This document shows, piece after piece, positions 672 to 23,042 of a DNA stretch of 43,821 nucleotides. This stretch comes from Gammaproteobacteria bacterium (GTDB lineage: Bacteria; Pseudomonadota; Gammaproteobacteria; JAADJB01). The DNA lies in contig JAADJB010000026.1 in NCBI GenBank assembly GCA_013151035.1, positions 1 to 43,821 of the forward strand, given 5' to 3'. Position 1 is the stretch's first letter; the number at the start of each line of letters is the position of its first letter. The notes under the pieces were generated by a model that worked only from the letters and a program-made list of their open reading frames with translations, searched no databases and was not told the origin of the DNA. A program made the position numbers and the translations under genes.

Positions 672-2978
672 TTAGCTATTATTGTTTTTAAGTGAACACA
701 TCGCATTGACCGGTATAGTAAATTGAAATAATGCTCCACCATCAGGCTTGTTATCTGCCCATATCTTACCGCTATGAGCCTCAATGATCTGTTGGCAAAT
801 AGGTAATCCAAGTCCTGTTCCCCCGGTGCCTGTCGTTGTTCGACTACTTTGGTTAAATTTTCCAAAGATAGTTTCTATCTCGTCCTCAGGTATGCCATCA
901 CCTTCATCATAGATGCTGAAGTGCAACATGTCGTATTGCCCGGAGAATTGCTGTTCGATATGAATATGTATATTGCTACCAGACGGAGTAAATTTGATGG
1001 CATTGGATAGCAAGTTGGTGATAACCTGAGCGATCCTCTCCTTGTCAAATATCCCGTCACCAGCCGAGTTATCATCGGCCCAGATAATATTGATATCCAT
1101 TTCGTCCAGTCGTGCGCGTTGTTCGTTGATGGCGATCTCGGTTACTGTTTGCAGGCTTTGGGATGAGGATGACATCTCCATTTTTCCTGCCTCTAGTTTG
1201 GCCAGGTCAAGCAGATCGTTTAGCAGGTTGAGCAGACGATCACCACTATTGCTGATCTGCTGGAAATACATTTCGATTTTTTCTGTTGATAAGGAGTCAA
1301 TACGCCTCAGACCCAAATTGGCGAAGCTGAGAATACCGTGCATGGGCGTACGGAGTTCGTGAGACATATTGGCTAGAAACTCTGATTTTGCCTGGTTGGC
1401 ACGTTCAGCCTCATTTTTCGTGGCAATGAGTTTTTTCTCGGCATCCTGTTGCTGGGTGACATCGTTGATAAAGGCAGTAAAATACCACTGATGATTAATA
1501 CGTGCCTTGGATAGATTCACACGGGCTGGAAATGTTGTTCCATCGCGGTGCTGACCGGCTAACAAGAGGGTTCGTTCGTTTGTTTTTCGTTCCTTTGAGT
1601 CTCTAAATTGATGCACATACTGCAGGTGTTTATCATGCACATATCGGGGTAACAGGATATTCATATTCTTGCCAAGCACTTCTTTAGCTGAATAACCAAA
1701 TTGCCGTTCTGCCTCCGGGTTAAACAAGGTTATTTTCTGTTCCTCATCAACAGTCAGTATGCCCTCGGATGCATTATTAATTAAGGTGTCCAGTCTGATA
1801 TGGTTGTTCTTCATATCCATATCATATTTATTTCGCATCTCTGCCATTTGATTAAAGCTGTTTGATAGTTCAATAATTTCATTTTTGCTATCGGTGTTAT
1901 CGATAGGGATGTGCACAGAAAAGTCACCTCTTGCCATCTTGCGGGTGATAGCAATCAGTTTGTGTATGGGGGCAATCATGTGTCTGGAAAACAGGGAAGT
2001 TACTATTGCCATGATGATGAGCAAGGCAATGACAATAATAATGGTTTTTTGAGTCAATTCGTGTATGGGTTGTTGTGCTTCATCGATATCAATCTTGGTG
2101 ATGATGCCCCAGTTTGCTGAATCCAGATGAGACCAACTGGCAATGACCTCCTTATTGCGATAGTCAATGAATCGCCCCATACCCGAATGGCCTTTGGCCG
2201 CATTGATGAGTGTTTGTGCCTGTCTTGTGTCCAGGTAGTCTTTGTTTTTCTGCGCTTCTTGCGCATGTCTTGGCGGGGTAATAAATTCAAGTTTCTGGTT
2301 GTGCCAGGATACAATCAGGATCTCACCACTATCGCCCAGACCGCTATAGTCATTGCTTAGATTGATGAGTTCGTCTGGCATAAGTTGTATGGCGACATAG
2401 GCAATGATATTGCCCTGGCTAGTCATGGGCAGGGTAATCAGGTTTATTTTTTCATCGGGATTAATATACAGATAATAACCCTGTTCTTCTTGGGTTTTAC
2501 CCGCATGTTTCAGCGACAAGCTATGAATAAATTGCTTATAGGGGAGAGTGTGAATCCTGTCCCATAGCTTATTATCCTTGCGGGTGTTGCGTATGATCTC
2601 TTTACCGGGAGTGATTATAAAAATATCATAAAGGTCGGTAATATCCCGGTATTGTTGCAGGTGCTGGATAATAGCATCGGATAATGGGTGGACATAGTGA
2701 TGTTCCTCACCATGATTGTAATAATGTAAGAATTCCTGGATTAATTCAGGATTAATACTTAATGAATAGGCCTGTTTGATACGCTCACGAATATGTGCGT
2801 TGATATAGCGTGCCTTTTCCTGTGCGATGATTTGCAGTTTGTTTTCAATGGTTTGTTCTATGGCTCGGGTAGAGAAGTAATAACTGAATGAGGCACCAAT
2901 AAACAAGGGTATCAGTGCGATAACAGTAAACCAGAAGAATAACTGTTGTTGTACCGGTCGATCCCTGAGTTTTGTCAT
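672..2978 (-). CDS. Membrane sensor histidine kinase (Cache-like sensor, HAMP, PAS, HisKA, HATPase)
   Basis: The 768-residue protein has a first membrane helix at about 12-35, a roughly 270-residue extracytoplasmic region of double-Cache type, a second helix at about 310-330, HAMP, and a PAS domain (TLINNASEGILTVDEEQ). HisKA follows with ANMSHELRTP (phospho-acceptor His near residue 540), then an ATPase domain with NLLSNAIKF (N box), DEGDGIP (G1) and GTGLGLP (G2). There is no receiver domain, so it must phosphorylate a separate protein. The obvious candidates are the two response regulators transcribed divergently from about 240 bp away. The extracytoplasmic ligand cannot be read from the sequence. 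Confidence 0.9.
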   Translation of the reverse strand: MTKLRDRPVQQQLFFWFTVIALIPLFIGASFSYYFSTRAIEQTIENKLQIIAQEKARYINAHIRERIKQAYSLSINPELIQEFLHYYNHGEEHHYVHPLSDAIIQHLQQYRDITDLYDIFIITPGKEIIRNTRKDNKLWDRIHTLPYKQFIHSLSLKHAGKTQEEQGYYLYINPDEKINLITLPMTSQGNIIAYVAIQLMPDELINLSNDYSGLGDSGEILIVSWHNQKLEFITPPRHAQEAQKNKDYLDTRQAQTLINAAKGHSGMGRFIDYRNKEVIASWSHLDSANWGIITKIDIDEAQQPIHELTQKTIIIVIALLIIMAIVTSLFSRHMIAPIHKLIAITRKMARGDFSVHIPIDNTDSKNEIIELSNSFNQMAEMRNKYDMDMKNNHIRLDTLINNASEGILTVDEEQKITLFNPEAERQFGYSAKEVLGKNMNILLPRYVHDKHLQYVHQFRDSKERKTNERTLLLAGQHRDGTTFPARVNLSKARINHQWYFTAFINDVTQQQDAEKKLIATKNEAERANQAKSEFLANMSHELRTPMHGILSFANLGLRRIDSLSTEKIEMYFQQISNSGDRLLNLLNDLLDLAKLEAGKMEMSSSSQSLQTVTEIAINEQRARLDEMDINIIWADDNSAGDGIFDKERIAQVITNLLSNAIKFTPSGSNIHIHIEQQFSGQYDMLHFSIYDEGDGIPEDEIETIFGKFNQSSRTTTGTGGTGLGLPICQQIIEAHSGKIWADNKPDGGALFQFTIPVNAMCSLKNNNS

Positions 2979-3215
2979 GTTTCCAGGCCTTAAAGTAACA
3001 AAGTGGACAGGGAGATCATAACCTATGGCTGACCCTGAGTAATAGCACAGATTTTATCAGGTTTTACCCGGTGAGCGATTTTGTCGGTTTTATTTCCTGT
3101 TATCCTGTTCTGTCTGTATATACTGCTAGGAATAAGTTGTATTTTTTGCTATGTTGTTTTGATCTGACACGGTCATGGAGAACCTGGTCAATGAAATGGA
3201 ATGTGAGAGGGATTT

Positions 3216-4130
3216 ATGAATTTACCTGTGGCACAAATTCTGGCTGTTGATGATGAAGGATTGAATTTGATGATTATCTGCGACCTGTTTGAGGAGGTTG
3301 GGTCGCCTTATCATTATGAAATCACTACTATTGGTAATGGAATGGAGGCATGGAAGATGCTGGAAGCAGACCCGGAGAGGTTTGATGTGATACTGCTTGA
3401 TCGAATGATGCCGGATATGGGCGGTATGGAAGTTCTTGCCAGAATTTATTCTCATCCGGTTCTGATGCATATTCCTGTTATTATGCAAACCGCATGTGCC
3501 AGTGATGACGAGATTCGGGAAGGGATCTCGGCAGGTGCCTATTATTATTTGACAAAACCATTCAATGGTGACTCCCTGATATCGATTGTGCAGACAGCTG
3601 CGCGCGATCATTTTCTGTACAATAATTTGCGTAAGGATTTGCAAGCGCATAAGCCTGACCAGTCCACTATAACAGCAGAATCCTTTACCATTCATTCCCT
3701 GGAGGAGGTGCATAATCTGGCAATTAATATTGTGAGTCAGTATCCAGGGCTGGACAGGATACTGCTGGCACTCTATGAATTATTACTCAATGCCATTGAA
3801 CATGGTGTGGCGCGTATCGGCTATGAAGCAAAGACAAAATTAATTGAGGCAGGTGGCTGGGAGGAAGAGGTTAATCATCGCCTGCAGCAACTTGATAAAG
3901 ATCAGAAGTCAGTTGCCGTTGAGTGTAAGCGTGATGGCAATAGCATTGCGATTGAGATTAATGATCACGGGGATGGTTTTGACTGGAGGAAGTATACAGA
4001 GATGTCACCCGAACGGATCTACGATAATCATGGCCGTGGTATAGCGCTCGCTTATCTGTTTGCCGATTTGATTGAGTACTCGGGGAACGGGAATTGTGTG
4101 CGTATTGTATCGGATATTCAAGGAAACTAA
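3216..4130 (+). CDS. Response regulator: REC domain plus RsbW-like ATPase domain
   Basis: Residues 1-125 are a receiver domain: acidic VDDE at 11-14, phospho-acceptor Asp62 in ILLDRMMP, and the conserved Lys in LTKPF. About residues 170-300 form a GHKL ATPase domain of the anti-sigma/RsbW type (ELLLNAIEHG, INDHGDGFDW, NHGRGIAL). No helix-turn-helix is present, so output is probably protein phosphorylation or partner binding rather than DNA binding. The gene follows GAGAGGGATTT and ends just before the next response-regulator gene, with which it is likely co-transcribed. REC-HATPase proteins are usual partners of PP2C/STAS partner-switching proteins, but none is visible here. Confidence 0.85.
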   Translation: MNLPVAQILAVDDEGLNLMIICDLFEEVGSPYHYEITTIGNGMEAWKMLEADPERFDVILLDRMMPDMGGMEVLARIYSHPVLMHIPVIMQTACASDDEIREGISAGAYYYLTKPFNGDSLISIVQTAARDHFLYNNLRKDLQAHKPDQSTITAESFTIHSLEEVHNLAINIVSQYPGLDRILLALYELLLNAIEHGVARIGYEAKTKLIEAGGWEEEVNHRLQQLDKDQKSVAVECKRDGNSIAIEINDHGDGFDWRKYTEMSPERIYDNHGRGIALAYLFADLIEYSGNGNCVRIVSDIQGN

Positions 4131-4141
4131 AGGAGCGGGTT

Positions 4142-5257
4142 GTGGGTGATAAGGCATATATTCTGGGTGTGGATGATGAACCTGTTAATCAGGTTATTCT
4201 GGAAGAATTACTGGGTGAACAGTATGAATTGATCTGTGTTGATAATGGGCGGGCGTGTCTGGATGCAGTAAAGGAACGTAAACCGGATTTGATCTTGCTG
4301 GATATTAATATGCCGCTAATGAATGGCTTGGATACCTGTATTGCATTACGGGAGGTTCCTGAATACAAGCAGTTACCCATTATCTTTGTCTCTGCCCTAG
4401 CATCCTATGACGAACGTATGGCAGGCTATGATGCGGGTGGGGATGATTATATAACCAAACCTTTTAATGAACGTGAGTTGCTTATCAAGATTAACCTGAT
4501 GCTGGAGAATACCCAGGAGAAGGCTCAGTTAAAGGATATGTCCGATTTTGCCTCAAAAACGGCAATGACGGCAATGACCAGTACTAGTGAGCTCGGTCTG
4601 GTATTACGCTTTTTACAGGAAAGTTTTAGCTGTAATAGCTATCAAGAGGTTGCGCAGAAGGCGTTTGAATGTAGTCTGGCGTATGGTCTGAGTGCGACCC
4701 TGGTGGTATATAAGGGTGAAGGTGGTGAACGGGTGGGTGTGTTTACCAGTGATACTAAACATCGCCCGCTGGAAGCAACCGTGCTGGAACAACTCAGGGA
4801 TAAGGGACGCATCTATACGATTAATGAAAAGGTGATCTATAACGGCAGGCTTGTTTCCTTGTTAACCAAGGATAATCCCATTGGTGATGAAGATCGATTT
4901 GGGCGTATCAAGGACAATATTGCTATCCTGGTTGATGGCATTGATGCACGAATAAGGGCGATTAATACCCAGCTGGCACTGGTTGATACGATTGAAATCG
5001 CACAGACTGAGATGCAGGACCTTGATCTTGAACAGAGGCGTATACAGGGTAATGTGGCGCAGGAATTATCACACTTGGCAGGTGAGATCGAGGCATCTTT
5101 TATGAATCTGGGGCTGACGGCCGAGCAGGAAACGGCTTTGATGACGCTGGTGAATCAGGCAGAGAAAAATACCGACGCGATGCATGCAGAAGGTGTTGCC
5201 ATGGATGAACGTTTTGGTTTGATTATTAGTCAATTAAAGCAGGCTATCGGTGAATGA
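4142..5257 (+). CDS. Response regulator with GAF-like region and C-terminal coiled coil
   Basis: The frame is open from further upstream, but the GTG at 4142 follows AAAGGAG (4129-4135) by six bases and gives a normal receiver start (MGDKAYILGVDDEP). I therefore use it: 371 residues. The receiver has Asp54 in ILLDINMP and Lys in ITKPF. Residues of about 140-270 look like a small GAF-type fold, and about 280-371 are a charged, coiled-coil-like tail. No DNA-binding, GGDEF, EAL or phosphatase motif is present. It directly follows the REC-ATPase gene, and the two together probably serve the divergent kinase. Output function is unknown. Confidence 0.8.
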   Translation: MGDKAYILGVDDEPVNQVILEELLGEQYELICVDNGRACLDAVKERKPDLILLDINMPLMNGLDTCIALREVPEYKQLPIIFVSALASYDERMAGYDAGGDDYITKPFNERELLIKINLMLENTQEKAQLKDMSDFASKTAMTAMTSTSELGLVLRFLQESFSCNSYQEVAQKAFECSLAYGLSATLVVYKGEGGERVGVFTSDTKHRPLEATVLEQLRDKGRIYTINEKVIYNGRLVSLLTKDNPIGDEDRFGRIKDNIAILVDGIDARIRAINTQLALVDTIEIAQTEMQDLDLEQRRIQGNVAQELSHLAGEIEASFMNLGLTAEQETALMTLVNQAEKNTDAMHAEGVAMDERFGLIISQLKQAIGE

Positions 5258-7397: not shown

Positions 7398-8087
7398 ATG
7401 TTTAATCAGCACAATAATAAGACCTCAGCATTGGTAGGAGCTTTGATTCTGGCGGGGGCTATGACTTTATCCAGTAATGTTAATGCAGCAGTTATTTCGC
7501 AAAGTGATGCTATTGCAATGTCCAATACTAATTGGAGTAATACACTGAGTTTTAATCAGTTTGATAGCTCGCTCGGTACTCTGGATTCGGTCTCCTTTGA
7601 AATTACAGGTGTGGTAGCAGGTGATGCAAGGTATGAGAGTATGGATAGCGCACCTTCAACGGTCACCTTGAGTCTGGAAGCGATGCTTGAGTTGGCGCGT
7701 CCATCCGGAGCTCCTTTGGTTGTTGTCTTTCCTGTTGTGAGTGTCGTTGCTACACCGGGTCCTTTTGATACTGTTATTGATTGGAGCGGGACTTCAGGTG
7801 GTGCATATATAGGTTTGACGGCAACGCTGTCGAACTCGGCAAGCACGACCTCAGCCGCTGATCTGGCACTCTTTACCGGTGCTGGTACGATTGATCTGGG
7901 CGTGAGTGCAAGCGCACAGTCCATGGGTACGGGTTCAGGTAACTTAGTTACCTGGTTTACTACCGATGCCAGTGCTGATGTGACGGTGATCTATAATTAT
8001 TCAACGGTACCTGTTCCTGCTGCGGCATGGTTGTTTGGTTCAGGTCTGTTGGGACTGGTGGGTATGGCTCGACATAAAAAGAGATAA
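7398..8087 (+). CDS. VPxPA-CTERM sorting-domain exported protein (paralogue 2)
   Basis: The 229-residue exported protein has a signal peptide (ALVGALILAGAMTLSSNVNA), a Ser/Thr/Ala-rich body, and the C-terminal signal VPVPAAAWLFGSGLLGLVG with basic tail ARHKKR. It aligns along its length with the preceding gene (shared NW..TLSF..FD.SLGTLDSV and ADLALFTG.GTI.LGV). The pair is therefore a tandem duplication that has diverged while keeping its own promoter copy. AGGTG (7385-7389) precedes the ATG. Expected to be exported and processed by an exosortase encoded elsewhere; role probably matrix or cell surface. Confidence 0.85.
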   Translation: MFNQHNNKTSALVGALILAGAMTLSSNVNAAVISQSDAIAMSNTNWSNTLSFNQFDSSLGTLDSVSFEITGVVAGDARYESMDSAPSTVTLSLEAMLELARPSGAPLVVVFPVVSVVATPGPFDTVIDWSGTSGGAYIGLTATLSNSASTTSAADLALFTGAGTIDLGVSASAQSMGTGSGNLVTWFTTDASADVTVIYNYSTVPVPAAAWLFGSGLLGLVGMARHKKR

Positions 8088-8284: not shown

Positions 8285-10447
8285 TTAACGAACGGCAAAG
8301 AAGTTAGGTCCCATGCCTTCTGGCGGCTGAATGAACAGCGGATCAATTGTTGATGCTGGTGCAGGTGATGCTGGATTACCCACGGTGGTGGAATCAACAT
8401 TCTGTACTCGACCAACTGCAAAGTCTGCCTCATAGATGGTTCCATTCTCATCCAGGAAGCGTCTCAGTACTTGTACTGGATGTACGAAACGATCCGGTGC
8501 AACCTGCTTAACGATAGGTACACGTCTGCCTGTTACAGGGTGAGTAATAAAGCGGATGATATTGGTGGTGTTTAACGGCGGTACAACGGTGATTGCGCTG
8601 TTGTAATCGTCGGCATTAGCCAGTTCAAAGAACTGATGTTTTTCGCCACCATTGGTGCGACAGATTCGATCCAGTGGTTCGCCATGCGGGAAACATGAAG
8701 CGAATACATAACGCTTGCTCGGATCTAAAGGTACACCACCAACCATAGTCTCTACAATACGGCCACTGGATGTGCCGAATGGACGATTGTCCAGATCAAC
8801 CTTTTGTGTAATGTTGGACAGACCAACATACCAGCCACCTCGTTGCAGGAAGGGGTTGCGATTAAACACAGCAGATAATACCGATTCCAGATCTCTTTCA
8901 ATGCTTAAACCAGAGAATTCAGCAACAGCAACAGCCGGGCTGATAGGGAATTGCGTATAAAGATCACGTAGAGTGATTTCACCACTGCCACCCTCATTAC
9001 TGGATAGAATCACATTGCCAAAGCGGAAGCCATTGGTCATGGATAGATCGACACCATTTGTCCAGTCGGTCTGACTGGATACAATTGGATCGGTAATGCT
9101 ACGCATGGCATCAGCGATGACATTGTTGATTACATCTTCCAATACGTGACTACGCTTGAGTAACACATCGGTATAACCAACAACGGTATCCAGATCTTCG
9201 GTTAATTGATGACCGCGTACGGTTACATCACCACAGTTATTTGCCGGGCAGTAACCACCAGGCATAAAGCTGTGACGCGCAACGGCATTGTCAGCACCAG
9301 CAATAAAAGGTTCCTCTGCTGCATCGGCAATGATCTTCATGGCTGGATCTTCAATGACATCATCATCTACCGGTATGGCTGTCCATTTGAAGTCTCTGAC
9401 ATGACCGTTTCTAACCCGTAGATCCAGGCGACCAAGATACAAGTCTTCGGTGGTCTCAACCACGATAGCGGCACCCTTGGCAAGCATATGTCTTTCATAA
9501 CCACTCAGATTGGAACCTGGTGTGGTTGCTATTGTTTCATGTTGGTTTACCAACAAAGCACCCAGGGTTAATTCATGGGTATGTGCGGATAATACAACAT
9601 CGACATCCTTGAACATCTTACCGATCTGGATGTTTTGGGGAAGCCCCAATTCAGATTGAACCACGATCATATCAATGCCTTGATCCTTGATTTCATCAAT
9701 GATGCCAGGTAGTTCTTCGATGCCCTGAGTAAAGCGGAAACCGATATTAAAGACATTGGCTTGTTGCGGCACAATCGACGCGGTGATACCGATAACAGCA
9801 ACCGGTTCTCCACCCATGTCGAATACCTTATAAGCAGGCAGAACACGACGGTTACGTCCAGGTGCAGGGATTGGCTCACCGTTGGCATTGTAGATATTAA
9901 CAGCCAGTGTCGGGAAGGTTGCCTTGGTGACGCCAGGGCCATCATAGGCATTTGCCATAACTCGGAGGTTAGCCGGGAGTGGTCCTGTTGGTGCTGTAAA
10001 GCGATTGCGGAATACAGCAGGGCCGTAGCCAAATTCCCAGTTACCTGGGGTGTAGGCATCAATGCCAAAGGCATTCAGCGCAGGCATAATAGCATCACCA
10101 ATGGTAAACATGGTCTCAGCGGTACCGTGAGTCGAGTCGCCAACGGCCAGTAACAGGCTGTTGTTGCTGCTGGCGCGAACCTCATTGACCAGGGTCTTGA
10201 GTTTAGCTACGCCACCGGCGTTTTGTACATAACGCGTTGTGCCATCCGGATTATGGATAACACCGGCATGGGGAATGATATTTCCGTGAACATCAGATAA
10301 TTGCATCAGGGTGATGTTAAAACGGTTGTTGTCATGGTGTTCATGCTCATGTCGGGCATAAGCAGATGATGTGGCTATACCGAGGGTTAGCAGTGTTGTT
10401 ATGCTTGCCCCCAGATATTTTTTAATGAAAGCGCGTGGCTTATTCAT
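8285..10447 (-). CDS. Secreted 5'-nucleotidase/SoxB-like metallophosphoesterase with altered active site
   Basis: The 720-residue protein has a signal peptide (to about residue 31) and a His-rich stretch (RHEHEHHD). It has the two-domain layout of the UshA/5'-nucleotidase family, to which the thiosulfohydrolase SoxB also belongs. Metal-site motifs visible are SDVHG (Asp52, His54), GDSTHG (Asp104), GNWEFGYG (Asn136) and AHTHE (His289, His291). The usual GNHE-F-D catalytic His and Asp are Trp137 and Gly140, and the usual SHxG ligand is Glu266. SoxB, as I recall it, also has Trp after the metal-site residue, so this is probably not a simple nucleotidase. ATG 10447 follows GGAGG. The gene is divergent from an ECF sigma gene with which it appears co-regulated. 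Confidence 0.8.
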   Translation of the reverse strand: MNKPRAFIKKYLGASITTLLTLGIATSSAYARHEHEHHDNNRFNITLMQLSDVHGNIIPHAGVIHNPDGTTRYVQNAGGVAKLKTLVNEVRASSNNSLLLAVGDSTHGTAETMFTIGDAIMPALNAFGIDAYTPGNWEFGYGPAVFRNRFTAPTGPLPANLRVMANAYDGPGVTKATFPTLAVNIYNANGEPIPAPGRNRRVLPAYKVFDMGGEPVAVIGITASIVPQQANVFNIGFRFTQGIEELPGIIDEIKDQGIDMIVVQSELGLPQNIQIGKMFKDVDVVLSAHTHELTLGALLVNQHETIATTPGSNLSGYERHMLAKGAAIVVETTEDLYLGRLDLRVRNGHVRDFKWTAIPVDDDVIEDPAMKIIADAAEEPFIAGADNAVARHSFMPGGYCPANNCGDVTVRGHQLTEDLDTVVGYTDVLLKRSHVLEDVINNVIADAMRSITDPIVSSQTDWTNGVDLSMTNGFRFGNVILSSNEGGSGEITLRDLYTQFPISPAVAVAEFSGLSIERDLESVLSAVFNRNPFLQRGGWYVGLSNITQKVDLDNRPFGTSSGRIVETMVGGVPLDPSKRYVFASCFPHGEPLDRICRTNGGEKHQFFELANADDYNSAITVVPPLNTTNIIRFITHPVTGRRVPIVKQVAPDRFVHPVQVLRRFLDENGTIYEADFAVGRVQNVDSTTVGNPASPAPASTIDPLFIQPPEGMGPNFFAVR

Positions 10448-10508: not shown

Positions 10509-10536
10509 AAGACGTTATAGGCGAGCGTTTTATTCC
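10509..10536 (-). promoter_or_regulatory. Candidate ECF-sigma promoter of the metallophosphoesterase gene
   Basis: On the minus strand GGAATAA (10536-10530) is followed after exactly 16 bases by GTCTT (10513-10509). This resembles RpoE-type promoters (GGAACTT-N16-GTC). The sigma gene itself has GGAATAT-N16-GTCTA on the opposite strand, which strongly suggests both are read by the neighbouring sigma factor. An inverted repeat, AGGCGA/TCGCCT, lies in the leader at about 10470-10495. Confidence 0.5.
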
Positions 10537-10596
10537 CTTCTTTGAAAAAAACATGACAATAATCAATAAATAGTATGTATTAAAATACTAATAGAG

Positions 10597-10624
10597 GGAA
10601 TATTTCCTCATCTTCTTGCGTCTA
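10597..10624 (+). promoter_or_regulatory. Candidate autoregulated ECF-sigma promoter
   Basis: GGAATAT (10597-10603), a 16-base spacer and GTCTA (10620-10624) precede the sigma gene. They match the divergent promoter in both boxes and in spacing. Autoregulation is the rule for ECF sigma factors. The -35 box also lies within the near-palindrome GAGGGAATATTTCCTC. Confidence 0.5.
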
Positions 10625-10657
10625 TATAGAAGGAAGGGGAAATGTTAAGATGTTGCG

Positions 10658-11230
10658 GTGAATATTTTAAAACAGCTGTGTAACAAAAGGCGATTGGGTC
10701 AGATTGATCTGACGCGTAGCCGTGTGCGTCTTTACCGTATCGCCTATGCCTGGTCACATAGTCAGAGCATTGCGGATGACCTCACCCAGGAGGCGATGGA
10801 AAAGGCCTTGAAGAAGATTGATCAGTTAAAGGAACACGCTGCCCTGGATGGTTGGTTATACAAGATACTCGCCAACTGTTGGCGCGATTATTGTCGACAA
10901 CAGCGTGAGATGGATGATATTCAGGACTATAGCCTGTCTGAGGAAGATCATCCCGAAACACAATATGCGCGGCGGCGTGTTAATGATCTTGTGCATCAGG
11001 CGATTAGCGATTTGCCTGAGGATCAACGCCAGATCGTCACGCTGATTGATATTGGTGGTGCCAGTTATATTGATGTTTCGGAGATTCTGGAGATCCCGAT
11101 GGGCACGGTCATGAGTCGTTTGAGTCGAGCAAGAAAAAAATTGGCAGTATTGTTATTGCCGCAACGCAGTCAACTTGATGTCTATGATGTTAAGGCTACG
11201 AATGTATATTCAATAAGAGAGAAGCAATGA
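10658..11230 (+). CDS. ECF-type RNA polymerase sigma factor
   Basis: The 190-residue sigma-70-family protein contains only regions 2 and 4. Region 2 spans about residues 20-85 (RLYRIAYAW, ADDLTQEAMEKALKK, LDGWLYKILANCWRDYCR). Region 4 spans about 105-160 (AISDLPEDQRQIVTLIDIGG, then MGTVMSRLSRARKKL, the DNA-recognition helix). The GTG at 10658 is the only reasonable early start in frame, though its ribosome site is poor. Its stop overlaps the start of the anti-sigma gene in ATGA, implying translational coupling. Likely targets are its own promoter and the divergent phosphoesterase promoter. Confidence 0.9.
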   Translation: MNILKQLCNKRRLGQIDLTRSRVRLYRIAYAWSHSQSIADDLTQEAMEKALKKIDQLKEHAALDGWLYKILANCWRDYCRQQREMDDIQDYSLSEEDHPETQYARRRVNDLVHQAISDLPEDQRQIVTLIDIGGASYIDVSEILEIPMGTVMSRLSRARKKLAVLLLPQRSQLDVYDVKATNVYSIREKQ

Positions 11231-11955
11231 GTCAGAATGAATTTTCAGATGATTTTATCAATGCCTATATTGATAATGAATTAGGTGTTGATGATAGAGC
11301 CAGGCTGCTGGATCAGATCCGGGATGATGAGTCCCTGGCGGGTCGTGTCTGTCAGTTGCAGAAGGTTAAGGAAATGACTAAAAATGCCTATGATTGTATT
11401 GAGGTGCCAACCGCTACAGTCGTTTATAAATTAAAGACCCCCTGGACAGAATGGGCAACTACAGCACTGGCAGCAAGCGTATTATTGAGTGTGGGTGTGC
11501 TGGGTGGCTGGTATACACAGTCTCTTAATCATTCTCCTAATTTACTGGAGTTTGCCGAGACGGTAGAGGTGAATCATGGCTTACATGATAATCCGCGTCT
11601 GGTACTTCATGTCACAACGAATGATCCGGTAAAACTGGCGACAGTGTTGGAAGAAACAGAATCCTTATTGAAGCGTTATGAAGGGCGTGCAAATCAACCT
11701 GAGGTTGAGATCCTTGCCAATGGCCAGGGGCTCGGTTTGTTAAGAGTGGGGGGTGCAGACTTTGCTGAACGGATTAATGCACTACAATCACGTTATGATA
11801 ATCTTGCTTTTCTTGCCTGTAAGAAAACGATTGATCGTTTGAAGTCACAGTATAAGACGGATGTTAATCTATTGCCGGGTGTGAAGATAGTACCTTCTGC
11901 CTTAGGTGAGATGATTGATAAGAAACAGCAGGGCTGGGCTTATATCAAGATCTAG
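11227..11955 (+). CDS. Membrane anti-sigma factor with C-terminal DsrE-like domain
   Basis: Residues 1-65 resemble a short anti-sigma domain (FINAYIDNELGVDDRARLLDQI) but lack the HxxxCxxC zinc motif. One membrane helix spans about 75-97. Residues of about 123-242 look like a DsrE/DsrF-family fold: RLVLHVTTNDPVKLATVLEE, EVEILANGQGLGLL, a cysteine at 198 (LACKKTIDRL), and LLPGVKIVPSALGEMIDKKQ. Topology places this domain in the periplasm. DsrE-like proteins handle sulfur or bind small ligands, so it may be the signal-sensing part. It is coupled to the sigma gene by an ATGA overlap. The domain assignment is by eye and should be tested by profile search. Confidence 0.75.
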   Translation: MSQNEFSDDFINAYIDNELGVDDRARLLDQIRDDESLAGRVCQLQKVKEMTKNAYDCIEVPTATVVYKLKTPWTEWATTALAASVLLSVGVLGGWYTQSLNHSPNLLEFAETVEVNHGLHDNPRLVLHVTTNDPVKLATVLEETESLLKRYEGRANQPEVEILANGQGLGLLRVGGADFAERINALQSRYDNLAFLACKKTIDRLKSQYKTDVNLLPGVKIVPSALGEMIDKKQQGWAYIKI

Positions 11956-12028: not shown

Positions 12029-12631
12029 TTATTTTCGTCGTCTTGCTATTGCAAATAAGCCTATCAGACCTGAACCAAACAACCACATAGCAGCCGGTAT
12101 AGGTACCGCTGTAGGTGGTGTTACAGTAGCTTCTATTGCTGATGCATCTAGCGTTGCTTTTTTAAATTCGATCTCACCTGAGGTCACCTCCAGAGTTGCG
12201 CTCAGTTCACCTGTTGCACTCAAGGTTATTATTGACGTCAGTCCCACGGTGATGGCTGTTTCACTGGTGACGCTGCTGAAGTTTTCTGTACCAACGGTAA
12301 GATTAGCGAGGGTAACCGTACCTGATTTATGTTCCTCAGGTTCATCATCCTCTCCATCGTTATCAGTGTCATGGCTCTTATCGTCATCCTCATCTTCTTC
12401 CCACTCTAATATGATAGTGGCGGATGATACGTCTTGAGAAACCGGATTAAAACCATCGGTGGTAATGTTAAATATCCATGAGTCGTTATTAGTGCCACTG
12501 GTGCTTAATGTGATCTCTCCAGCATTATAGACATCGCTGTAGTGTGTAACAGTGGTGGCTGCTGCTGAGCCTGCTGTTAATAAGCTGAGCGCAGCAACGA
12601 GTGATGACGCTAATTTTTTTATGTCTTTCAT
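12029..12631 (-). CDS. VPxPA-CTERM exported protein with acidic segment
   Basis: The 200-residue protein has a signal peptide (LASSLVAALSLLTAGSAAA) and a beta-rich body. A highly acidic insert at about 77-102 (EWEEDEDDD, then repeated D/E) resembles calcium-binding acidic loops. The C-terminal exosortase signal is VPIPAAMWLFGSGLIGLFA with tail RRRK. A sigma-54 promoter lies about 65 bp upstream and a terminator follows. The acidic stretch distinguishes it from the two tandem paralogues. Confidence 0.85.
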   Translation of the reverse strand: MKDIKKLASSLVAALSLLTAGSAAATTVTHYSDVYNAGEITLSTSGTNNDSWIFNITTDGFNPVSQDVSSATIILEWEEDEDDDKSHDTDNDGEDDEPEEHKSGTVTLANLTVGTENFSSVTSETAITVGLTSIITLSATGELSATLEVTSGEIEFKKATLDASAIEATVTPPTAVPIPAAMWLFGSGLIGLFAIARRRK

Positions 12632-15266: not shown

Positions 15267-16055
15267 TTATCTCCTTGATTTTGAGGTTGAGAAAAGTGCG
15301 ATTATACCTGATAGGAAGAGCCAGAATGCAGCAGGTACAGGTACGGCAACATCCAGCGTTGCTGATGAGACTGTCCAGCTTTCATCCCATTTGACCGTAT
15401 TTGTTGATGAGGTGATACCGCTTAGGGATAGAATACCTTCTGCGGTAGAGCCATAACCCGCTAGGCTCAGCAGGCTGGCTGAATCGATGATGGCACGAAA
15501 ATCGATAGTAGTTCCATCAAATCCCATCGCGGTTATGCTGCTACCACTGATCAAGGCACCATCTAGTACGGTGCCATTTGCTGCGGTGGCGGTATAAAGT
15601 CCAGGTGTCTGGAAGAGTGGGTTTGTATTGCTAAAGCCACCAAAATATTGAGCAACTTTACCATTCAGGCTCATTGAGCCACCGAGTAGATTGCCACTAC
15701 TATCTACCGACATTGTCATAGAGAAATCGTCATTGCCTGGCCCTGTTGCAGGGCTTACAAGGATAGAGGTATCCGGATTAGTTCCTGCGGCAATGCCTGT
15801 CATATCTGATGCATCAGGCCAAGGGCTGAGTTGATCAGGGAGGAAAGAGGTGTTGCCTGCGGTTCCGTTTACCACTAGTGTTCCCTCATTAAGACCACCA
15901 TCATAGGTATAATCAACCGTTAAACCGACTATGTTAAAGTCGGGAGCGCATCCCCCGGGGAAGGTACAGGCCCCTATGAGAGCTGCATTTGCTGAATTTA
16001 TGAGCCCACTGGACAAACCGAGCGCAAGCACCAATAAGAATCGGATTGATTTCAT
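15267..16055 (-). CDS. PEP-CTERM-type exported protein
   Basis: The 262-residue protein has a signal peptide (FLLVLALGLSSGLINSANA). The body begins with a CTFPGGCAPDF two-cysteine motif and is Gly/Ser/Thr-rich. The C-terminal signal is VPVPAAFWLFLSGIIALFS with basic tail SKSRR, another VPxPA form. A sigma-54 promoter precedes it and GGAG precedes the ATG. It is the first gene of a two-gene unit with the 462-residue secreted protein. Probably a surface or matrix protein processed by an exosortase that is not in this window. Confidence 0.85.
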   Translation of the reverse strand: MKSIRFLLVLALGLSSGLINSANAALIGACTFPGGCAPDFNIVGLTVDYTYDGGLNEGTLVVNGTAGNTSFLPDQLSPWPDASDMTGIAAGTNPDTSILVSPATGPGNDDFSMTMSVDSSGNLLGGSMSLNGKVAQYFGGFSNTNPLFQTPGLYTATAANGTVLDGALISGSSITAMGFDGTTIDFRAIIDSASLLSLAGYGSTAEGILSLSGITSSTNTVKWDESWTVSSATLDVAVPVPAAFWLFLSGIIALFSTSKSRR

Positions 16056-17377: not shown

Positions 17378-20350
17378 TTATGTTAGTAAATTTCTTATTT
17401 TTTTAAGCAGGGTTTGTGAATTATAAGGTTTGTGGAGTAAATTATTACTCAGGTTTTCATTGACCATGTTCCTGTGACGTTCATCATTGAAGCCGCTAGC
17501 TAATAGTATCTTTATTTCTGGGTATTTTTCTTCAACAATGGCAGCAAGCTCATAACCATCCATTTCGGGCATAATGACATCAGACAGAAGCAGGTCGATA
17601 GATTCGTTTTCAAGGATGTCTATGGCTTGTTGTCCATTGTTAGCACACAGGATTTGATAACCCTGCTGGCTCAAAATTTCACTACTTAATGCGAGTAATG
17701 CGGGTTCATCGTCAACGATAAGAATAGTTTCATTCCCTTGGATACTTGCTGGGTTATTTTCTTTCTGAGAGGTGTTGTATTGATTATTTCTCTCACAACG
17801 AGGGAAGTAGAGTTTGAATTGAGTGCCTTGATCAAGCTCGGAATAAACCTTTATTGCACCATGACTACGCGTAACAAAACCGTAGACCTGACTTAACCCC
17901 AGTCCTGTTCCCTTGTCACCTTTGGTACTGTAGAAAGGCTCAAATATCTTCTCTTTTTCAATGCTATTCATGCCGCATCCGGTATCGGTAATGCTGAGAA
18001 GGACGTAATCCCCTGTGTCTATTTGTAATAAACGGGCATCGAGTTCATTGATCTGTATGTTAGCTGTCAGGATGGTTAATAAACCCTTGTCTTCCATCGC
18101 ATGAGCGGCATTGATGCACAGGTTGACGATGGTGTCCTCCAGATCGCCCCTATCGAGGTATGTTGACCATAAATTATCGCTTAACTCGAAGGACAGTTGA
18201 ATCCGTGCTGTCAGGGTTTTTTGTAGCATATCCTGTTCTTCTTTTAACAAGACGTTCAGGTTTAATTTTTCGGTATCGCTACTTTTGTGTCGGGAGAAGG
18301 AAAGTAGTTTTCGAGTGAGCTTGGCACCACGTTCACCAGCATAATGTATTTGTTGGGCGTATTTTCTCAATTTGGGCTGTGCGCCTAACTGTTCTTCCAG
18401 GATACTGGCATAACCCATAATAACACCGAGCATATTGTTGTAGTCGTGGGCAATGCCACCCGTCAGTTTACCGAGGGCATCCATTTTCTGACTACGTTGC
18501 AGGGTTTCCTCGAGGATAACCTGTTCGGTAATATCCTGTACGGTACCGGTGGAACAGAGTGGCTTGTCATTATCATCGTAAATAGTCTTGCCACGCTCAA
18601 TGACATATTTGATGCTTCCGTCGGACATGCGTAGGCGGTGATTGATATTGTAAAAGGTTTTGTTTTTCAAGGATTCTGTGTATGCAAAGTGCACTTTCTC
18701 CCGGTCATCGGGGTGTACTGCATTAATAAATACCTCGTATGATGCTTCAAACTGCTTCGGATCAATTTCAAATATGCTATAAACTTCATCAGACCAGAGT
18801 AACTTGTTGGTTACTGGATCTAGTTTCCAACTGCCAATATGTGCCATACGTTGAGCCTCGGCCATTGCCTGCTCACTCACTAATACAGCCTCTTCAGCCT
18901 TCTTGCGATCCGTTATATCGGTGATGCTGCCAACAAAACCAACGACCTCATTATTCTCTCCTTCTTCTGCTAGAGCCTCACCGAGTACCCAACGGATATT
19001 ATTCGCATGCTGAAAACGGTATTCACATTTGAATGGTTTGTTTTGTTCAATTAATTGCCTCCATTCGGCAAGGACTCGTTCTCGGTCTTGTGGATGCAGA
19101 CCGTTCTTCCAGTTATCACCTTGTGCTTTTCCTATGGCGATACCGGTTATTTCACTCCATTTTTTATTGATGAATAAACAATCCCCCTGTCTATTGGCAT
19201 AAAAAATGCCTACGGGCGCTACTGTTGTCAGGGTCTCGTACTGTTTTTTGCTGGTGGCTGCTGCCTGACGTAATCGATACGCTTCTGTTACATCATTGAA
19301 AACCAGCACCATACCGAGGATGTTGTTTTCCTCATCACGAATGGGCGCGGCAGAATCTGCGATCTGATATTCTCTACCATTTCTTGAAATCAAGGTCGTA
19401 TGATTACTAAGATAGACGGTCTCACCGCTACTAATAACCTTTTCGACGGGATTCTCAATGGTTCTGCGGGTACTGGCATTGATGATAGGAAAAATATCTT
19501 TTACCGATAGGCCCCTGGCTTCTTTTAATGACCAGCCCGTTAGTTGTTCTGCAACTGGGTTCAGTCGTGTGATATTACCCTCGGCATCGGTGGCAATGAC
19601 GGCATCACCAATGCTATTGAGTGTTTGTAGTAGATATTGTTTTTGTTGACCAATTTCTGTTACCTGTTGCTGTAGTCTGCGTTGCATATCATTAATTGAT
19701 TTGACCACGGTATCGAATTCATCATAATTCTGGGTGTCTCTATCCAGGGTTAAAGGCGGATGGTCTGATAATGGATTATGTTCTTCTGCGAATGCTGAAA
19801 TTCTTGATAAATGCCTGGTAACTAGATGGTGAAAGAGAAAATAAATAAAGATAGCGACCAAAAAGGTCTTGAGTCCATTGGATATTAATATGACCCATAC
19901 CCTGCTAATCAGACGTTGATAAACGCCATCAAGGGTGACCACAATGCTTAGTCTACCGATATTGATATCTTTGCCTCTATGGCGATAGTTTATGGGGTAG
20001 ATGCGTTCAATGGAATTATTTCTACTGCTGTTGTCGGTTTCTATTCCTGCGCGCGCCCAAACCTGTTCAGTATCGCGTATCTCGACATATTGCATGTCCC
20101 GTATCTGTAATATGCCCTCAATACTGGTTTGAAGTAGTTGTCGATTGGATGTCCATAGGGCGGAGGCGAGACTTTCCAGGTGAACACCTTCAATCTGTTG
20201 TAGTTCACCATGGATGTGTTCAAGGTCAGAACTATAGTCACGATAGAGTTGGGCTGCGGTGGTTAACAGTGTAATGGCGGAACTAAACAGGATGATATAG
20301 ATAATCAGACGGTAAGCAATCGGTGATCGGGCAGAACGAAGGTTTAACAT
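17378..20350 (-). CDS. Hybrid sensor histidine kinase with three PAS domains and C-terminal receiver
   Basis: The 990-residue protein has membrane helices at about 12-35 and 160-180 around a small periplasmic region. A HAMP-like linker is followed by three PAS domains (about 240-355, 365-485, 490-610; the first begins LNSIGDAVIATDAEGNITRLNPVAEQLTGW). HisKA has GKLTGGIAHDYNN (His near residue 634), then HATPase motifs (NLCINAAHAM, DTGCGM, KGTGLGLSQVYG) and a receiver with LLLSDVIMP (Asp near 923). The arrangement fits a phosphorelay or self-desensitising kinase. It follows a periplasmic solute-binding protein gene by three bases, so that protein may deliver the ligand. Confidence 0.9.
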   Translation of the reverse strand: MLNLRSARSPIAYRLIIYIILFSSAITLLTTAAQLYRDYSSDLEHIHGELQQIEGVHLESLASALWTSNRQLLQTSIEGILQIRDMQYVEIRDTEQVWARAGIETDNSSRNNSIERIYPINYRHRGKDINIGRLSIVVTLDGVYQRLISRVWVILISNGLKTFLVAIFIYFLFHHLVTRHLSRISAFAEEHNPLSDHPPLTLDRDTQNYDEFDTVVKSINDMQRRLQQQVTEIGQQKQYLLQTLNSIGDAVIATDAEGNITRLNPVAEQLTGWSLKEARGLSVKDIFPIINASTRRTIENPVEKVISSGETVYLSNHTTLISRNGREYQIADSAAPIRDEENNILGMVLVFNDVTEAYRLRQAAATSKKQYETLTTVAPVGIFYANRQGDCLFINKKWSEITGIAIGKAQGDNWKNGLHPQDRERVLAEWRQLIEQNKPFKCEYRFQHANNIRWVLGEALAEEGENNEVVGFVGSITDITDRKKAEEAVLVSEQAMAEAQRMAHIGSWKLDPVTNKLLWSDEVYSIFEIDPKQFEASYEVFINAVHPDDREKVHFAYTESLKNKTFYNINHRLRMSDGSIKYVIERGKTIYDDNDKPLCSTGTVQDITEQVILEETLQRSQKMDALGKLTGGIAHDYNNMLGVIMGYASILEEQLGAQPKLRKYAQQIHYAGERGAKLTRKLLSFSRHKSSDTEKLNLNVLLKEEQDMLQKTLTARIQLSFELSDNLWSTYLDRGDLEDTIVNLCINAAHAMEDKGLLTILTANIQINELDARLLQIDTGDYVLLSITDTGCGMNSIEKEKIFEPFYSTKGDKGTGLGLSQVYGFVTRSHGAIKVYSELDQGTQFKLYFPRCERNNQYNTSQKENNPASIQGNETILIVDDEPALLALSSEILSQQGYQILCANNGQQAIDILENESIDLLLSDVIMPEMDGYELAAIVEEKYPEIKILLASGFNDERHRNMVNENLSNNLLHKPYNSQTLLKKIRNLLT

Positions 20351-21818: not shown

Positions 21819-23042
21819 ATGTTTAAGACAAAAAAACTATATCGTAAGACGCTACTAGCATTAACAGTGTCTGCGCTTTTGCCCATTAACAGTTTTGCGG
21901 CTACTGATCTTGAGGTTCTGAGACAAGAAATGGATCAGCTTAAAAAGCAGATTGCAGGTAGAGATGAGTGGAAGGTACCGAATACACTCGTTCATATGGC
22001 AGGTTATGCTGATGTCGGTTATTCCAACAGCGGGGCTGCGAATGATGATGGTAGCTTCAATTCAGGCAGACTAGCACCGATCTTTCATTATCAGTACCGT
22101 GATATTGTGATGCTGGAATCGGAGCTGGAATTTAAGACCATGGCCGATGGTAGTACTGCGACCGCACTGGAATACCTGACCCTGGATGTATTTCTGAATG
22201 ATTATGTCACCCTGGTAGCGGGTAAGTTCCTAAGCCCGATTGGTACCTTCCGTCAGAATATCCATCCCTCATGGATTAACAAGATGGCATCGGCAGCCCC
22301 TGGCTTTGGTCATGATGGTGCCGCACCAGTATCCGATACCGGACTTCAATTACGCGGTGGGTTTCATATCGGTGAGATGAAGGCCAATTATTCGGTCTAT
22401 ACCGGTAATGGTCCGGAGATCAAGGCTGAGTTGACACCGAATGCAATTAATAATGCGCTGGTTGATGATGTTGAATATGACGGTATTGATGCTGAAGGTT
22501 TTGGTGTAGATGCCGATGGCAATAAGGTCTTTGGTGGTCGTTTTGGTCTCTTGCCAATACCTGCCCTGGAAATTGGTGTGTCACTATTGACGGGTAAGGC
22601 TGATGTTACCAGCTTTGAAAACATTGGTGCTTATACAGGTAATACATCCACTCTGTTAAGTAGTGTCACATCCACTAATTATGATGTGGCGGGTGTTGAT
22701 GTCTCATGGCGCAACAAGGCTGTGGATGTGCGATTTGAATATGTTCAATCTAAGTTAGGTGCCGCTACCATGGGTGCTAATACCCTGGCATCAGCCAAAT
22801 GGACAACCTGGTATACCCAAGCCGCCTATAAGATCCCTGCTACCAAGTATGAGGTGGTTGCGCGTTATGGTGACTTTAATAGCCCGCATCCTGCAGCTGA
22901 TCGCAAACAGGTAGCGGTGGGTGTTAATTACCTGTTTGCCAGTAACTTTGTTGCCAAGGTTAACTATGAATTAAATAAGAACCCGAATGCTGGTTTCAAT
23001 ACTGATAATCGCCTGTTAGTTCAACTGGCTTATGGATTCTAA
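21819..23042 (+). CDS. Outer-membrane porin with N-terminal coiled coil
   Basis: The 407-residue protein has a signal peptide ending NSFAA and a short coiled coil (LEVLRQEMDQLKKQIAG, about 31-47). This is followed by a 16-strand-type beta-barrel with alternating aromatic strands, ending in a C-terminal Phe (LLVQLAYGF), the usual outer-membrane insertion signal. The segment VAGKFLSPIGTFRQNIHPSWINKM resembles phosphate-selective porin/OprO-type or similar anion porins, but selectivity cannot be read. It is followed closely by two cytochrome c genes, so it may admit a respiratory substrate or hold an electron conduit. Confidence 0.8.
   Translation: MFKTKKLYRKTLLALTVSALLPINSFAATDLEVLRQEMDQLKKQIAGRDEWKVPNTLVHMAGYADVGYSNSGAANDDGSFNSGRLAPIFHYQYRDIVMLESELEFKTMADGSTATALEYLTLDVFLNDYVTLVAGKFLSPIGTFRQNIHPSWINKMASAAPGFGHDGAAPVSDTGLQLRGGFHIGEMKANYSVYTGNGPEIKAELTPNAINNALVDDVEYDGIDAEGFGVDADGNKVFGGRFGLLPIPALEIGVSLLTGKADVTSFENIGAYTGNTSTLLSSVTSTNYDVAGVDVSWRNKAVDVRFEYVQSKLGAATMGANTLASAKWTTWYTQAAYKIPATKYEVVARYGDFNSPHPAADRKQVAVGVNYLFASNFVAKVNYELNKNPNAGFNTDNRLLVQLAYGF

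Follow-up and report, generated by a model that had tools for sequence, protein, structure and literature searches.

In Sinorhizobium meliloti, the ECF26 sigma factors RpoE1 and RpoE4 respond to sulfite, control the periplasmic sulfur-oxidizing enzyme SorT, and are activated by thiosulfate or taurine metabolism (PMC3511301). In Arcobacter butzleri, ECF sigma-2 raises sox expression, as seen by transcriptomics and phenotype (PMC3445524). These two cases show that sulfur oxidation can be placed under ECF control. SoxR and sHdrR, which repress sox and other sulfur-oxidation genes, are ArsR-type repressors that respond to sulfane sulfur through cysteine chemistry (PMC10451225, PMC12423496). SoxT import has been proposed to bring sulfur to the cytoplasmic repressors, and the sensing of external sulfur by sulfur oxidizers has been called poorly understood (PMC11582611).

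Here, we examined a module encoded on a gammaproteobacterial contig, of which the whole analyzed stretch of 43,821 nucleotides is referred to below as the window (Table 1). The module is most likely an ECF/anti-sigma switch, a known kind of system, with a new type of sensor, a DsrE domain. Like RpoE1/RpoE4, it comprises an ECF sigma gene with an adjacent anti-sigma gene and appears to be autoregulated with a sulfur-oxidation target; however, RpoE1/RpoE4 are alphaproteobacterial, no DsrE-type anti-sigma sensor is described for them in the accessible part of the report, and their target SorT differs from the predicted targets found here, namely DsrE, porin-like, sox, and SoxB-like genes (PMC3511301). 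In the A. butzleri system, an ECF/anti-sigma pair likewise affects the sox operon, but it belongs to a different phylum and no sensor was identified there (PMC3445524). SoxR and sHdrR are cytoplasmic DNA-binding repressors, SoxR with two cysteines, whereas the sensor described here is predicted to face the periplasm and has one (PMC10451225, PMC12423496). Our literature search yielded no account of an anti-sigma factor that carries a DsrE sensor, in agreement with the original prediction made from the DNA of this locus, although a mention within the ECF reclassification is possible.

Table 1. Features of the sigma/anti-sigma module and its divergent gene in the window (parts of the anti-sigma protein are numbered by residue)
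Feature	Position	Strand	Description
Secreted SoxB/UshA-like metallophosphoesterase gene, divergent target	8285..10447	-	TIGR04486; Pfam Metallophos and 5_nucleotid_C
Predicted ECF-type promoter of the divergent gene	10511..10536	-	GGAATAAAACGCTCGCCTATAACGTC, preceded by G
Predicted ECF-type promoter of the sigma/anti-sigma operon	10597..10622	+	GGAATATTTCCTCATCTTCTTGCGTC, preceded by G
ECF sigma factor gene	10658..11230	+	Sigma70_r2 and r4, TIGR02937; 190 aa, GTG start
Anti-sigma gene with predicted periplasmic DsrE sensor	11227..11955	+	242 aa; profile, AlphaFold2 model, homologue alignment
Anti-sigma protein, predicted sigma-binding domain	aa 8-56		Helices
Anti-sigma protein, transmembrane helix	~aa 73-100		
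Anti-sigma protein, DsrE domain	aa 123-242		Contains Cys198

The sigma protein contains regions 2 and 4 alone within ~190 aa, as expected of an ECF sigma factor (Pfam Sigma70_r2, 5e-13; Sigma70_r4_2, 1.5e-15), and it scored 92 bits against TIGR02937 (cut-off 42.9). Its GTG start is consistent with the homologues. The start of the anti-sigma ORF overlaps the sigma stop by 4 bp; the gene thus lies downstream of an ECF sigma gene, in the manner of class I anti-sigma factors (ASDI), and the two genes adjoin one another at nearly all of the 80 loci of the family. A mini-ORF, ATG-TTG-CGG-TGA (10650-10661), follows the good Shine-Dalgarno sequence (AAGGAAGGGG, 10630-10639) that precedes this GTG, and the overlap of its stop with the sigma start codon could provide translational coupling.

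The sensor domain was assigned from both sequence profiles and structure. The single anti-sigma sequence matched Pfam PF02635 (DsrE) below the threshold (E=4.3e-4, 20.9 vs 22.7 bits); the family profile, built from an alignment of 78 homologues, matched MTH1491 (1l1s) at 1.6e-20 and ST0148 (2pd2) at 7e-11. The AlphaFold2 model (mean pLDDT 89) has three N-terminal helices spanning aa 8-56, a single membrane helix, and an alpha/beta domain at aa 124-241. In a Foldseek search, this model matched 1l1s at 7.6e-9 (TM 0.89 by target length); DsrEFH (2hy5) and the DsrE protein Swol_2425 (3pnx) also fell below 1e-3, and each of the six PDB matches below this value was either a DsrE-type structure or a design based on such a structure. 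By fold and profile, the domain therefore belongs to the DsrE/DsrF-like group (PF02635, COG1416-like). It has the fold and the cysteine position in common with MTH1491-type proteins (1l1s, 2pd2, 2hy5), but these are soluble and carry no membrane anti-sigma domain. To our knowledge, the periplasmic parts of the anti-sigma factors RseA and RskA are unrelated to DsrE.

Lysine and arginine residues averaged 3.5 ahead of the membrane helix and 0.9 after it among the 78 homologues, which gives an N-in, C-out orientation with the DsrE domain outside. Cys198 was present in all 78 proteins, in each of them as the sole cysteine of the periplasmic part, and it aligns with the cysteine of the MTH1491 sequence FCACSNTL, the conserved sulfur-carrying position of the DsrE family. 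At the other end of the protein, the zinc motif Hx3Cx2C that defines zinc-binding anti-sigma (ZAS) factors was found in 0/78 homologues. Zinc-free anti-sigma domains are ordinary, as RskA and RseA also lack the motif, and the short N-terminal helical, putatively sigma-binding domain, one transmembrane helix, and periplasmic part resemble the build of the class I proteins RseA and RskA, with a weak sequence match (PMC7406223). Only part of the family gave N-terminal matches, all of them weak (zf-HC2, 19/78; RseA_N, 2/78; NF052375, 20/78), and a profile search against MucA (6in7) gave a weak E-value of 0.11. The build put forward in the original prediction, an ECF sigma factor paired with an anti-sigma protein that joins a short zinc-free domain, one membrane helix, and a periplasmic DsrE/DsrF-like domain, with Cys198 as the residue whose conservation should be checked, was confirmed, and every computational check proposed for it gave a supporting result. 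In a phylogenetic tree, the sensor DsrE domains formed one group separate from stand-alone DsrE proteins (support 100/99). On this basis, we rejected the idea that secreted DsrE has been fused to anti-sigma proteins repeatedly and recently, and the grouping points to a single old fusion that has been retained.

The two promoters of the window both read GGGAATA-N16-CGTC, so that the matching divergent promoters with 16-bp spacers noticed at the outset were recovered on both strands with identical spacing, and they are conserved in relatives. When the relatives were searched with GGAATA-N15/16-CGTC, the motif lay ahead of the sigma gene at 59 of 71 loci, compared with 0.085 expected by shuffling, and ahead of a divergent dsrE gene at 31 of 39. 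Across 990 kb, there were 131 matches, compared with 2 for the reversed-pattern control. Because of these differences, chance promoters were rejected. The comparison strongly supports, at the level of predicted promoters, a conserved design that combines autoregulation with a divergent target.

In the window, the divergent gene most likely starts at ATG 10447 (720 aa) and not at TTG 10459 (724 aa), because a GGAGG Shine-Dalgarno sequence precedes the former. Its best NCBIfam match was TIGR04486 SoxB, at 175 bits against a cut-off of 550, and its best PDB match was SoxB 2wdc. At the position of GNHEFD in 5'-nucleotidases it has GNWEFGYG; SoxB of the same genome has SHWE. A true SoxB identity was rejected, since the score is below the cut-off and a real SoxB (872 bits) is encoded elsewhere in the genome; by homology, the product is a predicted SoxB-like hydrolase, which the curated model does not accept as SoxB. 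The divergent phosphoesterase originally predicted was therefore confirmed, with its type narrowed to SoxB/UshA-like and its start corrected. The same arrangement with twin promoters recurred in two other genomes, G093 (76% identity) and G098, and 10 of the 13 genomes with this hydrolase have the sensor. As a general target, the hydrolase was rejected: it is divergent only in these two genomes besides the window, and unlinked copies lack the motif. The gene triplet, for which recurrence elsewhere was a proposed check, consequently recurs in this form in G093 and G098, whereas the sigma/anti-sigma module itself recurs widely, usually with a secreted DsrE as its divergent target.

The window organism is a sulfur oxidizer by gene content: besides SoxB, its genome encodes dsrA (619 bits) and several dsrE-family genes, including dsrEF-like ones. 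A strict pattern search of this genome found the two intergenic sites in the window and four further matches, all inside genes, so that a large regulon was not seen. Its sox operon showed no strict or relaxed motif. Judged by motif occurrence, the circuit in this species looks local. The idea of a closed circuit accordingly holds for the window genome under the strict search, but not for the relatives, whose predicted regulon adds secreted DsrE, porin-like, and sox genes. The window genome encodes, at a site unlinked to the module and with no strict promoter match, a secreted stand-alone DsrE whose N-terminus is signal-like (G000:C53:83793-84119).

The distribution of the family was surveyed in 369 genomes across the class, most of them metagenome-assembled and the window's own included. 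A full-length sensor homologue was found in 64 of these, belonging to many different families of the class. A separate scan of named genomes gave hosts that include Thiobacillus, Sulfuricella, Sulfuritalea, Sulfurisoma, Thiohalophilus, Thiohalobacter, Thiogranum, Guyparkeria, and Thiotrichaceae; family members are present in the culturable Guyparkeria hydrothermalis, Thiobacillus denitrificans, and Thiohalophilus thiocyanatoxydans. SoxB was encoded in 63 of the 64 sensor genomes and in 85 of the 305 genomes without the sensor (p=2e-28, with kinship ignored), and all 64 had SoxB or DsrA. The distance between the sensor gene and soxB is no more than a few kb in three genomes (G155, G266, and G166). 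When 398 genomes from the phylum were sampled, the full-length protein was confined to the window's class, where three genomes had it, the window's own among them. Taken together, these genomic comparisons strongly support the predicted circuit and its association with sulfur oxidation. One contig binned as Desulfobacterales (locus L093) carries the module beside glnE, as do the gammaproteobacterial loci L045, L071, and L073, and its placement is probably due to a binning error or to transfer. The GlnE and GroEL neighbors in some relatives seem to be ordinary chromosomal neighbors.

The commonest divergent or following gene in the relatives encodes a stand-alone DsrE protein of ~150 aa (39 divergent cases, plus downstream ones). 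These proteins have a signal-like N-terminus in 61 of 66 cases and a cysteine in 65 of 66, and the gene is often followed by one for a ~450-aa porin-like protein (weak porin match). In several relatives, the motif also stands ahead of soxX, soxB, or both, and in G082 it precedes a TsuA-like transporter gene. When the motif was sought up to 450 bp upstream of soxX/soxB, with six loci chosen for the motif left out, it was present at 14 of 56 unselected sox loci from sensor genomes (two of which, G001 and G125, gave two loci each) and at 1 of 60 from sensor-free genomes (p=1.5e-4, kinship ignored). The sole exception among the controls is G064 (locus L275), where the motif precedes soxX although no sensor was detected; since it belongs to the same family as the sensor-bearing G300 (f65), the sensor gene may have been lost recently or may lie on a contig absent from the assembly. 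At two other loci (L107:1291-2985 and L109:5361-7046, one labelled Thiotrichaceae), the motif-bearing divergent gene encodes an unrelated secreted protein of ~562 aa that is rich in cysteines and has no family match. Because ORF calling was mechanical, reverse-strand ORFs are misleading in high-GC loci, and several long "neighbor" ORFs seen there (for example, 706 aa in L064 and 666 aa in L090) were rejected as artefacts.

From these observations, we think it probable that the module is a switch for sulfur oxidation that senses sulfane sulfur (persulfide) in the periplasm. Without a signal, the zinc-free cytoplasmic helical domain (aa 1-56) would keep sigma inactive at the membrane, a role suggested by the gene pairing, the weak domain matches, and the fold. 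Periplasmic oxidation of reduced sulfur could lead to the loading of sulfane sulfur, as persulfide or polysulfide, onto Cys198 from SoxYZ or from a secreted DsrE partner; alternatively, a sulfur-loaded DsrE protein could dock on the sensor. Sigma might then be freed directly by a conformational change or through intramembrane proteolysis. Conservation strongly supports the next step, in which freed sigma would transcribe the divergent gene as well as the sigma/anti-sigma operon from the GGGAATA-N16-CGTC promoters. The predicted output in the window is the SoxB-like hydrolase, and in relatives it would be secreted DsrE, often with the porin-like gene, joined in part of them by soxX/soxB operons and in one by the TsuA-like transporter gene. 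The secreted DsrE may bring sulfur to the sensor or take it away, which would form a feedback loop.

Cys198 might serve chemistry other than sulfane-sulfur sensing. Redox-sensing anti-sigma factors are well known, and the same switch could respond to general periplasmic redox or thiol stress through an intermolecular disulfide, glutathione, or DsbA-type exchange, as a single exposed conserved cysteine could make an intermolecular disulfide and the cysteine is also kept in nearly all of the secreted DsrE targets. We regard this as unlikely, because general thiol stress would not predict a distribution that tracks SoxB/DsrA or a motif on sox genes. Moreover, as Cys198 is the lone periplasmic cysteine, an intramolecular periplasmic disulfide is excluded, and persulfidation, S-thiolation, or an intermolecular bond remains. 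Of the two signals first suggested, a sulfur compound or the periplasmic redox state, the sulfur link has thus gained support, whereas the lone cysteine argues against a redox sensor of the intramolecular disulfide type.

It is also conceivable, though we consider it improbable, that the DsrE domain is a docking site for the secreted co-regulated DsrE partner, which would itself do the actual sulfur sensing or act as an inhibitor in a feedback loop, with the sensor cysteine left unmodified. Such a partner is the commonest target and is paralogous to the sensor domain, and DsrE proteins form multimers, DsrEFH (2hy5) being a known hetero-oligomer; however, the invariance of Cys198 exceeds what docking alone requires, and the window promoter drives no DsrE partner, the secreted DsrE of that genome being encoded at another site that lacks the strict motif. 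A generic envelope-stress ECF system that is common in sulfur oxidizers through shared ancestry would suit the ordinary type of the sigma factor and N-terminal domain, the porin-like targets, and co-occurrence statistics that ignore phylogeny, but it is very improbable given that the sensor genomes are spread over many families, that the motif ahead of sox genes depends on the presence of the sensor, and that the sensor gene is close to soxB in three genomes.

If sulfane sulfur is the signal, the switch may be the long-sought route for sensing sulfur from outside the cell: the known sulfur sensors are cytoplasmic repressors, and the DsrE anti-sigma family is a concrete and widespread candidate for sensing outside. 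We see an even chance that it directly senses intermediates of sulfur oxidation in the periplasm and is the first sensor to do so; in it, a one-cysteine DsrE domain would be persulfidated outside the inner membrane and pass the signal through an ECF sigma factor to three groups of genes (sox, secreted DsrE, and porin-like) in many sulfur-oxidizing gammaproteobacterial lineages, including the former Betaproteobacteria. The DsrE fold would then gain a signalling role, and the switch could be a regulatory link that joins sox to secreted DsrE and to sulfur-related porin-like genes in genera that include Thiobacillus, Sulfuricella, Thiohalophilus, and Guyparkeria. The family offers a single cysteine and a sigma gene as points of attack, along with a sharp promoter motif and sox genes as a readout.

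The surroundings of the module in the window contain several further genes. VPLPA/PEP-CTERM surface proteins (exosortase substrates) are encoded on either side of it (7398-8087 and 12029-12631), and the ORF at 15267-16055, which has no family match, ends in a tail similar by eye to those proteins. Histidine kinase/response-regulator genes also flank the module (672-5257 and 17378-20350), encoding a dCache/HAMP/PAS kinase, two receivers, one with HATPase_c_2, and a CHASE5/PAS hybrid kinase. A Porin_O_P-type gene (21819-23042; Pfam 6.5e-6) and the porin-like gene that adjoins dsrE in the relatives are distantly similar, with 19% identity (E=5e-5).
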